Below are positions 56,636 to 62,978 of a stretch of 64,000 nt of DNA, piece by piece. Origin of the DNA: an uncultured Pelagibacteraceae bacterium (lineage in GTDB: Bacteria > Pseudomonadota > Alphaproteobacteria > Pelagibacterales > Pelagibacteraceae). The notes beneath the pieces are model-generated. The model ran no database searches. It saw only the letters and a list, made by a program, of their open reading frames with translations, and was not told where the DNA came from. Location: positions 52,480 to 116,479 of the forward strand of contig CACFSO010000002.1 in the NCBI GenBank assembly GCA_902568975.1. The letters run 5' to 3'. Made by a program: the position numbers and the translations under genes. How positions within the stretch are numbered: the stretch's first letter is position 1; each line of letters begins with the position of its first letter.

Positions 56636-58420
56636 TTAGTTTACTAATGATTTTTGAGGTTTCATATCCTCTTTACTAATACCCGCTACTTTAACAGGTT
56701 TTTTCATTGCATCTCTTCTAAAAGGTTCTCCTAATTCTTGATTTAAAATAACCTCTATAAATGTTGTTATTCCTTTCTTTTGATCTTCGCACGACTGTTT
56801 AATTGCTGAAGTTGTTTCTTCCATTGTTTTAACTGTTACTCCTTTTAATCCACATGCAGTAGCAACTTTAGAATAACTGAGTTCTGGATCAAGTTCTGTG
56901 CCCACAAAATTATCTTCATACCAAAGTATAGAGTTTCTTTTTTCAGCTCCCCACTGATAATTTCTAAATATAACCATTGTAATTCCTGGCCATTCTTCTC
57001 TAGCACAAGAACTCATCTCATTCATACTTATTCCAAATGCTCCATCTCCAGCAAAACCAATTACTGGTGTGTTTGGACAGCCGATTTTTGCTCCAAGAAT
57101 GGAAGGAAATCCATAGCCGCAAGGACCGAATAATCCTGGAGATAAATATTTTCTTCCCTTTTCAAAAGTAGGATAAGCATTACCAATTGCACAATTATTT
57201 CCTATATCACTTGATATAATTACATCATCTGGCATAGCAACTTGAATAGCTCTCCAAGCTTGTCTTGGCGACATTCTATCTTTATCTCTTTCTCTAGCTT
57301 CTTTATTCCAAACTGTACCTGGATCATCTTCCTCATGATCTAAACCTGTTAGTGTTTGAAGCCAAGCAGATTTTGTTTTATGTATTAAATTTTTTCTATC
57401 TTCTCTTCCATTATCTCCAGCATTAGAAGAAAGTTTTCCAAATATCTGTTGTGAAACCATTTTGGCATCTCCACATATTCCTACTGTTACTTTCTTTGTT
57501 AAGCCAATTCTATCCGCATTCATATCAACTTGAATTACTTTTGCATTGTTTGGCCAATATTCAATTCCATAACATGGTAATGTTGAAAAAGGATTTAATC
57601 TAGTTCCTAAAGCTAAAACAACATCTGCTTTTGAAATTATTTCCATAGCAGCTTTAGAACCATTGTATCCTAATGGACCTACAGCTAAAGGATGGCTACC
57701 GGGAAAGCTATCGTTATGTTGATAACCATTGCATACTGGTGCATCTAATTTTTCTGCTAATTTTTTACATTCTTCAATTGCATTACCTATAACAACTCCA
57801 GCTCCTGATAAAATTACCGGAAATTTAGCCTCTGATAATAATTTTGCAGCTCTATTGATTGCTTCTTCTCCACCACCTTGTTTTTCAAATCTAACTATTG
57901 GAGGAATCTCAATATCTACTACCTTTGTCCAATAGTCCCTTGGAATATTTATTTGTGCGGGAGCTGATCCTCTAAATGCCTTTTCGATAACTCGGTTTAA
58001 TACTTCCGCCATCCTTGATGGGTCTCTTACCTCTTCTTGATAACAAACCATATCTTTAAACAAATTCATTTGTTCAACTTCCTGGAAACCTCCTTGGCCC
58101 ATTGTTTTATTAGCTGCTTGAGGAGTTACTAATAATAAAGGTGTGTGATTCCAATATGCGGTTTTGATTGGAGTAACCAAACCAGTTATTCCTGGTCCAT
58201 TTTGTGCAATTACCATAGACATTTTTCCAGTTGCTCTGGTATAGCCATCAGCAATCAATCCACCATTTGTTTCATGAGCAACATCCCAAAATGTAATACC
58301 TGCGGTTGGAAAGAGATCTGAAATTGGCATGAATGCAGATCCAATAATTCCAAAAGCATTTTCAATGCCATGTTTTTGAAGAACTTTTATAAAAGCTTCT
58401 TCTGTTGTCATTTTTGTCAT
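56636..58420 (-). CDS. xsc: Sulfoacetaldehyde acetyltransferase
   Basis: Thiamine diphosphate enzyme converting sulfoacetaldehyde plus phosphate to acetyl phosphate and sulfite. The sequence TTEEAFIKVLQKHGIENAFGIIGSAFMPISDLFP at the N-terminus and AHETNGGLIADGYTRATGKMSM are strongly Xsc-like. The C-terminal thiamine-binding GFAGDGAFGISMNEM motif is present. I use the ATG at 58420 instead of the TTG at 58426. About 594 residues, normal length. It diverges from suyA across about 92 bases. It would feed carbon to acetyl-P/acetyl-CoA and release sulfite to the neighbouring Apr system. Confidence 0.93.
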   Translation of the reverse strand: MTKMTTEEAFIKVLQKHGIENAFGIIGSAFMPISDLFPTAGITFWDVAHETNGGLIADGYTRATGKMSMVIAQNGPGITGLVTPIKTAYWNHTPLLLVTPQAANKTMGQGGFQEVEQMNLFKDMVCYQEEVRDPSRMAEVLNRVIEKAFRGSAPAQINIPRDYWTKVVDIEIPPIVRFEKQGGGEEAINRAAKLLSEAKFPVILSGAGVVIGNAIEECKKLAEKLDAPVCNGYQHNDSFPGSHPLAVGPLGYNGSKAAMEIISKADVVLALGTRLNPFSTLPCYGIEYWPNNAKVIQVDMNADRIGLTKKVTVGICGDAKMVSQQIFGKLSSNAGDNGREDRKNLIHKTKSAWLQTLTGLDHEEDDPGTVWNKEARERDKDRMSPRQAWRAIQVAMPDDVIISSDIGNNCAIGNAYPTFEKGRKYLSPGLFGPCGYGFPSILGAKIGCPNTPVIGFAGDGAFGISMNEMSSCAREEWPGITMVIFRNYQWGAEKRNSILWYEDNFVGTELDPELSYSKVATACGLKGVTVKTMEETTSAIKQSCEDQKKGITTFIEVILNQELGEPFRRDAMKKPVKVAGISKEDMKPQKSLVN

Positions 58421-58512
58421 AAACAATAAAACCTATTAAAAAAAAATTTATTTGCAATCGGAGAATTAATATATAGATTTAGTACTATTTTCTACAAGGA
58501 AATTTTGCCACA

Positions 58513-58800
58513 ATGGCCAATACAGATGTAATTATACACGATAAAAAAGACAACGTAGGAGTTGTTGTAATAGAAAAAGTAAATAAAGCACAAGATTGTG
58601 AATGCTGGATCATGGAAGATGACTCATCAACAAAAATTCAATCAATTAGCGATATACCTTTAGGTCACAAAATAGCAATGGTTGATTTTAATGAAGGAGA
58701 TACGATTATAAAATACGGTCATGATATAGGGAAAGTAGTTAAATCAATTAAAAAAGGTGAACATGTTCATGTTCACAATGTAAAAACTAAAAAGTGGTAA
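58513..58800 (+). CDS. suyA: (2R)-sulfolactate sulfo-lyase alpha subunit
   Basis: A 95-residue SAF-domain protein. The segment [30 protein letters not shown] and the ending [14 protein letters not shown] correspond to SuyA and to the N-terminal domain of altronate dehydratase. The adjacent large subunit and xsc favour sulfolactate sulfo-lyase, which splits 3-sulfolactate into pyruvate and sulfite. A sugar-acid dehydratase small subunit is the alternative. A Shine-Dalgarno-like AAGGA lies about 12 bases upstream of the ATG. suyB starts one base after its stop. Confidence 0.82.
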
Positions 58801-58801
58801 A

Positions 58802-59968
58802 ATGGAAATTCCAAAAAGTTTTTTAGGTTATAAAAGAGAAAATGGTAGAGTCGGTACAAGAAATCATGTGGTAATTCTTCCTGTGGACGATATTTCTAAT
58901 GCGTGTGCAGAAGCTGTTGCAAATAATATAAAAGGTACCTTTGCTATTCCTCATGCGTATGGGAGGCTTCAGTTTGGTGCTGACTTAGAATTGTTTTTTG
59001 ATACGATGATTGGTACTGGAAAGAATCCAAATGTAGCAGCTTGTATTGTTATTGGAATTGAACCTAAGTGGACAAAAAAAATTGTTGATGCAATTACGAC
59101 TACTGGAAAACCTGTAGAAGGTTTTAGTATAGAGGGTTCGGGTGATATTAAAACTATAATGAAAGCATCCCAAAAAGCACAAGAATTTTCACAGTGGGCT
59201 TCGGAAAAACAAAGAGAAGAATGTCCTATAAGTGATTTATGGATTTCAGTTAAATGTGGAGAATCGGATACAACATCTGGTATGGCAGCAAATCCTGCTG
59301 TAGGAAATTTAATGGATAAATTAGAACCTTTGGGAGTACATTTATGTTTTGGCGAAACATCAGAACTTACAGGAGCCGAAAAGGTTTGTGCTTTGAGAGG
59401 AAAAACATCAGAAGCTTCAAAAAAATTTATGAAAACATGGAGTGATTATAATGATTTTATACTTAAAGAAGCAACTAACGACCTTTCAGAAAGCCAGCCA
59501 ACAGCCGGTAATATTGCAGGTGGTCTAACAACAATCGAAGAAAAAGCATTCGGTAATTTTCAGAAAATTGGATCAAGAAAATTTATTGATGTATTAACAC
59601 CAGCAGAGGAGCCAAAAAAAGGTCCAGGATTATATTTTATGGATACTTCATCTGCCGCTGGTGAATGTCTAACTTTACAAGCGGCAGCTGGGTTTAATAT
59701 TCATTTATTTCCAACTGGGCAAGGTAATATTATTGGTAATGCAATAGAACCTGTTGTCAAATTAACCGGTAATCCAAGTACAGCTAAAAACATGAAAGAA
59801 CATATTGATTTAGATGTTTCTAAAATTTTAAAACGAGAAATGAACATGGATCAAGCTGGTGATGAATTAATTAAAACTACTATTAAAGCAGCCAGTGGTA
59901 GATTGACTTGTGCTGAAGTTTTGGGTCATAAAGAATTTATTATGACAAAATTATTTAGAAGCGCTTAA
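58802..59968 (+). CDS. suyB: (2R)-sulfolactate sulfo-lyase beta subunit
   Basis: A 388-residue UxaA-family large subunit, iron-dependent lyase. The start [21 protein letters not shown] is the family signature; [20 protein letters not shown] and [23 protein letters not shown] follow. Cys residues likely to hold an Fe-S cluster are present. It pairs with suyA one base upstream. With Xsc next door both are expected to yield sulfite from marine sulfonates. Altronate/galactarate dehydratase is the main alternative for this fold. It converges with the cytochrome gene after 3 bases. Confidence 0.82.
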
Positions 59969-60653: not shown

Positions 60654-60956
60654 TTAAGAAGCTTGTTTCTTCTCTTTATCATCAACTATATGATAAACTG
60701 GTTTTTTTTCCATTAAGAATTTACCAGTCTCAGTGTCTCTGCTTGAAACAGTTAAACAATGCCAGTTTTCATCATCTAACTTCATATAATCTCCTCTATA
60801 GTAATATCCTGGCCAACGTGTTTCTTGTCTAAAAAGAGTATGTTCGGTTACGCACTGGGATGTAAGAGTTCTATGTTTTAATTCCCAAGCTCTCATTAAT
60901 TGGTGATAGTCTTCAGCGCCTAAATTTTCAAGATCTTCTTGCAACCATTCTAGCAA
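60654..60956 (-). pseudogene. aprA: AprA C-terminal segment, out of frame with the main aprA ORF
   Basis: This ORF encodes the C-terminal ~100 residues of adenylylsulfate reductase alpha. LEWLQEDLENLGAEDYHQLM and RAWELKHRTL are recognisable. The frame actually opens at GGA CTA GAG directly after the A-run at 60966-60973. Removing one A would join it to the upstream ORF as NENTLKK-GLELLEWLQ and give a normal ~617-residue AprA. It is therefore the displaced 3' end of aprA, not a separate gene. The listed start is a TTG that is unlikely to initiate. Confidence 0.85.
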
Positions 60957-62508
60957 CTCTAGTCCTTTTTTTTAGAGTATTTTCATTAGTCATATAATTA
61001 TAAGTTATACCTCCTACATACTCATCCATTATTTTCTGTAATCTCTGAAGACCTTGAATTGGAGAAATGTAACTTGGAGAAACAGTTCCTCCAGTAATTT
61101 CATTTCTACCAACTGTATAGTTTTCCATAGGTTTATAAATGACTTCTTTTAAATTTTGATATTGTCTTTCTGAAACTTGAATACCGTTAGCTTTTTTGTC
61201 TTGGATATATTTAACTGCAGCTTTAGCGGCCAATCTTCCTTCGGTAAAAGAACCTGATGAAAATTTATGAGCACTTCCTCCAACAGTATCTCCTGCTCCA
61301 AACAAGCCTTCCACTGACATCATTCTATTATAACCCCAAAAATAATCATCAGGAGCTATATCTTCTGGGCCACTTACCCATGCTCCTGAACAAGTTGCAT
61401 GGGAACCCATTACATATGGTTCAGATGTAGTTAGTTCTGGATTTGTATATTTTGGATCAATATTTTGTGATGCCCAAACAACAGCTTGACCAACAGTCAT
61501 GCCTAGAAAATTTTCCCATCCGATGGTTTCTAAATGTGGGTCTTGAAAGGCTTCTTTTGTAACCATATGAATTGGTCCACCACCTGCCATAACTTCCTGT
61601 ATAAAAGCATGGTTACGTAAACAAGTTGGAGTTGGGTGATGATCTATATATTCTCCAACTAGCTCTTTAGTTTTTTCATACCATTTCTTCTCATAATTTT
61701 CACCATTTGCATTTTGAGTGTAAGTTTTTAAATGTAAAAAATATGCTCCTACAGGTCCATAACCATCTTTAAATCTACATAAAACAATTCTATTTTCCAT
61801 TTGTGTCATTTTAGCTCCAACAGCTATAGGAAGTGCGTAAGCTGAACCATTGCTCCATGGAGCATACCAAGTTCTTCCCATTCCTTCTCCTACTGCTCTC
61901 GGTTTAAAAATATGTGAAGCTCCACCAGCTGCTACTATTACAGTTTTAGACTTAAAAACATAATAATCTCCAGTCCTCATGTTAAAACCTACTGCTCCAC
62001 CTATTCTATTTTGCTTACTTTCATCTTTTAAAAGATGAGTAATCATTATTCTATTGTAAATTTTATCTGCTGATTTTTTTGCAGCTTCTGCAACAATTGG
62101 TTTATAGCTTTCGCCATGTATCATTATTTGCCACTTACCTTCTCTTTGATATCTACCTTCTTTGTTTTTCATCATTGGCAGACCCCATTCGTCAAACATA
62201 TGCACTGTTGAATCTACATGCCTTGCCATATCATAACCTAGATCCTCTCTAACAAGACCCATTAAGTCATTTCTTGCATAACGAACATGATCCTCTGGCA
62301 TATTCTCACCCCATTGCATACCCATATAACAATTGATTGCATATAGGCCCTGCGCAACAGCTCCGCTTCTATCTATGTTTGCTTTTTCTACACAAATTAT
62401 TTTTAAATCTCTTCCCCAATGTCTGGCTTCAAATGCGGCGCCGGTACCAGCCATACCTCCACCAACTACTAGAACATCACACTCTTCATAAATAGTTTTT
62501 CTAGCCAT
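60928..62508 (-). CDS. aprA: Adenylylsulfate reductase alpha subunit (frameshifted near the 3' end)
   Basis: FAD subunit of APS reductase, which in this lineage probably oxidises sulfite plus AMP to APS. The N-terminal VVGGGMAGTGAAFEARHWG binds FAD. The IVAAGGASHIFKPRAVGEGMG, CRFKDGYGPVGAYFLH and FGAGDTVGGSAHKFSSGSFTEGR segments are strongly AprA-like. After KK at about residue 514 the ORF runs into 12 foreign residues (RTRVARMVARRS) and stops. The correct C-terminus continues in another frame, so the gene is split by one extra A in an 8-A run. The start overlaps the aprB stop by one base. Confidence 0.9.
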   Translation of the reverse strand: MARKTIYEECDVLVVGGGMAGTGAAFEARHWGRDLKIICVEKANIDRSGAVAQGLYAINCYMGMQWGENMPEDHVRYARNDLMGLVREDLGYDMARHVDSTVHMFDEWGLPMMKNKEGRYQREGKWQIMIHGESYKPIVAEAAKKSADKIYNRIMITHLLKDESKQNRIGGAVGFNMRTGDYYVFKSKTVIVAAGGASHIFKPRAVGEGMGRTWYAPWSNGSAYALPIAVGAKMTQMENRIVLCRFKDGYGPVGAYFLHLKTYTQNANGENYEKKWYEKTKELVGEYIDHHPTPTCLRNHAFIQEVMAGGGPIHMVTKEAFQDPHLETIGWENFLGMTVGQAVVWASQNIDPKYTNPELTTSEPYVMGSHATCSGAWVSGPEDIAPDDYFWGYNRMMSVEGLFGAGDTVGGSAHKFSSGSFTEGRLAAKAAVKYIQDKKANGIQVSERQYQNLKEVIYKPMENYTVGRNEITGGTVSPSYISPIQGLQRLQKIMDEYVGGITYNYMTNENTLKKRTRVARMVARRS

Positions 62509-62978
62509 TAATAGTAAACTCCTTTTTTAAAAACACTTTTCTCAACTTTGGGTAATTCTTCATTCGTGTTTAATCCTTGAGGTTCTGAATATAAAATTTG
62601 AGAATTCATTTCTCCCTGGTTTGGTTTATCTCCATCAGCTAATTTAGGAATAAATTTTCCCCATGGTTTAGTAGTTATTGGAGAAATAAAATCTTTAACT
62701 GTTCCATTTCTAAATTTAATTTTCCAAGATATTGTTCCTTTTTCTTCCTCTCTTCTAACTCTAACACTATGTCCCATCGGTGCAAAATCTGCGTATCCAC
62801 GAACATCAATTGCATGATTAGGACATGCTTTTACACAAGAATAACATTCCCAACAGAAGTTAGGTTCAATGTTTTTTGCACGTCTAATTGTTTCATCAAT
62901 ATGCATAATATCAGAAGGGCAAATATCTACGCAATGGCCACATCCATCACATCTAGTCATGTATACAAAAGTTGACAT
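62508..62978 (-). CDS. aprB: Adenylylsulfate reductase beta subunit
   Basis: Iron-sulfur subunit of APS reductase, 156 residues. Two 4Fe-4S motifs are visible: CDGCGHCVDICPSD at about residues 10-20 and CWECYSCVKACPNHAID at about 42-56. The C-terminal tail (TTKPWGKFIPKLADGDKP) wraps around AprA in known structures. It shares one base with the aprA start and follows aprM by 21 bases. Confidence 0.95.
   Translation of the reverse strand: MSTFVYMTRCDGCGHCVDICPSDIMHIDETIRRAKNIEPNFCWECYSCVKACPNHAIDVRGYADFAPMGHSVRVRREEEKGTISWKIKFRNGTVKDFISPITTKPWGKFIPKLADGDKPNQGEMNSQILYSEPQGLNTNEELPKVEKSVFKKGVYY

Follow-up and report, generated by a model that had tools for sequence, protein, structure and literature searches.

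The window, a stretch of 64,000 nucleotides from the draft genome of an uncultured member of the Pelagibacteraceae, has a G + C content of 29% and contains aprA on its minus strand (62508-60654), the gene for adenylyl-sulfate reductase subunit alpha. The frame of the gene is broken by one surplus base in a run of eight A, and both flanks of the run are intact. On the plus strand, the run appears in the window sequence as a T8 at exactly 60966-60973, inside aprA. The open reading frame 62508-60928 codes for 526 amino acids and reads ...NENTLKKRTRVARMVARRS before its stop codon. Downwards from position 60965, the next frame reads GLELLEWLQEDLENLGAED... and continues for 103 amino acids without an internal stop until the stop codon at 60654. 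When joined, the two frames (511 + LKK + 103) add up to 617 residues. Compared to the aprA profile TIGR02061 (616 positions), the N-terminal part matches positions 1-518 and the C-terminal part positions 523-616, in two different frames that cover the whole length of the profile. In this assembly aprA is thus not a single open reading frame. The first-pass annotation had described the gene in the same way, as a protein of about 617 residues that is split by one extra A in an 8-A run and intact on both sides without further stops, and this description proved accurate. The gene contains a second A8, 1799 bases from its start, which is in frame. Only one copy of aprA was found in the assembly, which is approximately 77% complete.

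The gene adjoins aprB, which lies upstream. Downstream of aprA follow a small protein for which no family match was obtained, a cytochrome c, and then xsc and a probable suyAB pair (Table 1). The suyAB genes are core genes in the family, and aprAB belong to the SAR11 core genes on which purifying selection is strongest (PMC12636525). The reductase corresponds to the Pelagibacteraceae AprA of SOB Apr lineage I (PMC2211403) in sequence, joined length and the neighbouring aprB. It differs from it by the one extra A that breaks the frame, and no other difference was observed.

Table 1 Features of the aprA region (window positions) and approximate positions of similar frame breaks in the same genome
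Feature	Position	Strand	Basis
A8 run (T8 on the plus strand), site of the frame break; 2-7 A in relatives, in frame	60966..60973	-	Window sequence, alignment of relatives
aprA before the run (N-terminal part; 511 codons); FAD-binding domain, capping domain and start of helical domain	60974..62508	-	TIGR02061; A. fulgidus domain borders (PMC2211403)
aprA, C-terminal part, 103 codons and stop in the next frame; remainder of helical domain	60654..60965	-	TIGR02061
Out-of-frame tail of the truncated frame, ending ...RTRVARMVARRS and stop	60928..60973	-	Translation of the open reading frame
aprB, intact	62508..62978	-	TIGR02060
xsc, sulfoacetaldehyde acetyltransferase (sulfite source), intact	56636..58426	-	TIGR03457
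Probable suyA and suyB (two genes; sulfolactate sulfo-lyase, sulfite source), intact	58513..59968	+	Name inferred from size, family and literature
Six further split genes	L201 ~18960; L122 ~8690; L209 ~11050; L131 ~1220; L130 ~17170; L202 ~19260		Window's own genome

The best matches of the draft were Pelagibacteraceae (SAR11) genomes, the nearest AprA being 96% identical over the N-terminal part. At the DNA level, the closest relative is approximately 85% identical over aprA. Comparison of the run length with close relatives, a check proposed in the first-pass annotation, showed that the A8 is unique to this genome: none of 110 SAR11 aprA sequences, which include some genomes counted twice, has eight A at this site. 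Their runs range from 2 to 7 A and are in frame in all 110, so that neither a slippery run nor a frame break, as expected of a recoded gene, is conserved among the relatives. A pattern search of 399 sampled genomes of the genus yielded no near-identical genome in which the run length could be compared, the stretch being present only in the window's own genome, and no near-identical sequence at the run was found in viral contigs either. Values of dN/dS are low in both halves of aprA wherever they could be estimated, indicating that the gene has not been decaying. There was no clear sign of relaxed selection on the C-terminal part, for which dN is only somewhat above that of the N-terminal part; rates for this part are noisy and synonymous sites are near saturation for some pairs.

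The draft genome comprises 997 kb in 31 contigs, of which 753 kb were screened for frame breaks with reading frames from 1.2 Mb of the complete SAR11 relative G078 as reference. Frame changes break 7 of 560 conserved proteins, all seven at A/T runs of 7-9 and none elsewhere, which corresponds to approximately 0.35% of the A/T runs of this length in aligned coding sequence. Six of the breaks are +1 and one is -1 in the DNA. Besides aprA, the split genes are proS (prolyl-tRNA synthetase), accC (biotin carboxylase subunit of acetyl-CoA carboxylase), polA (DNA polymerase I), a sarcosine/dimethylglycine-oxidase-like gene of 810 amino acids, an omega-aminotransferase gene and a lexA-like gene (LexA-like repressor), all six of which are open in G078. 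When breaks at A/T runs recur across unrelated conserved genes within an assembly, this is the pattern expected of homopolymer errors. Loss of prolyl-tRNA synthetase or of biotin carboxylase would be lethal, and DNA polymerase I is likewise an enzyme that living cells can scarcely do without. Since proS and accC are indispensable for growth, their breaks should either be absent from the DNA of the organism or be rescued, provided that the split copies are the sole copies.

Among the controls, stretches of two related drafts contained 1 and 0 breaks, and a further 5 were found in 80 neighbourhoods of aprA taken from other genomes. This corresponds to 6 breaks in 416,166 aligned control residues compared to 7 in 175,977 here (one-sided p = 0.06), a marginal excess. 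When both flanks were required to be at least 70% identical, a threshold chosen post hoc, 1 control break remained compared to 7 here (p = 0.001). Across SAR11 drafts, frame breaks thus occur at a low rate and affect different genes from case to case; in this assembly they are somewhat more frequent.

The apr genes themselves are sporadically broken in other genomes. In genome G110 (L115:1460-1510), the frame of aprA is broken at a different place, at a T6 run that follows roughly 150 codons of the gene, and in genome G203 an in-frame TAA interrupts aprA some 30 codons ahead of the gene's end (L117, near 2832). In L111, a frame break in aprB lies close to an A7 run, and the sequence apparently differs by 11 bases. 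These cases fit real mutations and errors alike.

Based on the whole set of breaks, of which aprA is one member, we infer that the split is probably a technical error of this assembly. The gene would be an ordinary SAR11 aprA into which one base was inserted by a slip at an A/T run during amplification, sequencing or consensus calling, and in the living organism it probably reads through to a normal AprA of 617 residues. Technical error accounts best for the set because essential genes are among those broken and because rescue by slippage fits badly. Homopolymer indel errors in draft genomes produce the same pattern, namely several unrelated genes of an assembly that are each broken by a single base at an A/T run, and no feature distinguishing the present breaks from them was seen in the assembled sequence. 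Against this explanation, real homopolymer indels should be common in organisms lacking mutS and mutL, and other SAR11 drafts show some breaks as well.

The main alternative is a real and very recent +1 slip in the A run of one cell or population that inactivated aprA, which we consider possible but rather unlikely. No match to mutS was found in any of 31 genomes of the order, including that of the window, and nothing above the cut-off was found for mutL in 21 of 21 genomes, which agrees with a report on some SAR11 subclades (PMC12374537). With mismatch repair missing, frequent replication slips at A/T runs are to be expected, and a fresh aprA mutation in a single cell is therefore plausible; mutant cells of this kind would continually arise and be removed. 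It is in line with such a mutation that aprA is not an informational gene and that apr genes are sporadically broken at other sites in L115, L117 and L111. However, breaks of the same type occur in proS and accC of this assembly, where true losses are hardly possible, and the strong purifying selection on the core genes aprAB also speaks against it. For the A8 of aprA, the present sequence comparisons are compatible with both error and recent mutation. If the genome came from a single amplified cell, an early amplification slip would appear in all reads.

Slippage-dependent expression, in which RNA polymerase would stutter on the A8 and yield some in-frame mRNA, thereby setting the dose of AprA, is very unlikely. 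Buchnera and Blochmannia provide precedents at long poly(A) runs (review: PMC5009743), including eight genes of Blochmannia vafer, essential ones among them (PMC3017870). The AT-rich genome resembles those of the endosymbionts, and slippage would likewise predict that a single genome contains several essential genes that are split at A/T runs. As in these endosymbionts, otherwise intact genes carry single-base indels at A/T runs, several per genome. In Buchnera and Blochmannia, however, the runs are long, some are conserved between species or populations, and mixed mRNA has been demonstrated, whereas the breaks observed here lie at runs of 7-9 bases, are not conserved, are mostly of the +1 type and are known from the DNA of a draft assembly. 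In addition, the same slippage would damage the second A8 of aprA, which is in frame.

The direction of the slip points the same way. For six of the seven breaks, restoring the frame in the RNA would take slips of -1 (or +2), and this applies to the A8 of aprA. At A/T runs, insertions outnumber deletions genome-wide, and no frame-restoring transcription errors were found in Buchnera (PMC5574713). In reporter assays with E. coli RNA polymerase, none of the tested poly(A) runs showed detectable rescue by -1 slips (PMC6260861). The literature on these two organisms is thus contrary to the slip that aprA requires, although the SAR11 polymerase may differ. A broader form of the idea is that SAR11 bacteria, which have no mismatch repair and many A/T runs, tolerate breaks in essential genes such as aprA, proS, accC and others because polymerase or ribosome slips at short A runs so frequently that enough full-length protein is made. 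This would be a rescue like that of the endosymbionts in the most numerous free-living bacteria of the ocean, and we regard it as highly improbable.

In the reverse search of G078, most of the frame breaks were at A runs of greater length, in genes that are poorly conserved. A few such genes, on C1 near 1011420, 1054690 and 104730, are broken on A runs of 10-12, and these are better candidates for a real rescue by slippage than aprA. A ribosomal -1 frameshift was considered for aprA and rejected: the -1 frame meets a stop two codons past the run (AAA AAA AAG GAC TAG), and the shift needed is +1.

That a truncated AprA and a separately started C-terminal piece act as two functional polypeptides is hardly conceivable: 100 codons without a stop follow a TTG in the C-terminal frame, but none of the compared relatives has a two-piece AprA, and the helical domain is firmly attached and strongly conserved in the alpha subunit (PMC2211403).

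Of the three readings offered in the first-pass annotation, very recent mutation and sequence error thus stand, and the slippage-dependent gene is unsupported in view of the A8 shared by 0 of 110 relatives, seven like breaks including those in essential genes and a slip in the disfavoured direction (PMC5574713, PMC6260861). Its suggestion that sulfite oxidation would be controlled in quality or dose finds no support for the same reasons, to which the strong purifying selection on aprAB is added (PMC12636525).

Taken together, aprA is most likely an ordinary gene with a homopolymer indel of technical origin, and a regulatory interpretation is unsupported. In AT-rich drafts, the assembly's own rate of splits at A runs should be taken into account for any single gene split in this way before regulation is invoked. 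If the split were real, alignment to the A. fulgidus enzyme indicates that AprA would lack its last 103 residues and thus most of the helical domain. This domain (A488-643 in A. fulgidus) is more conserved than any other part of AprA and has been proposed as the interface at which heterodimers meet (PMC2211403). The protein would then likely lose its function, so that the cell's removal route for the sulfite made by Xsc and SuyAB would be lost and no dose control gained. Breaks that proved to be both real and rescued would change the way in which gene loss is read from SAR11 genomes.
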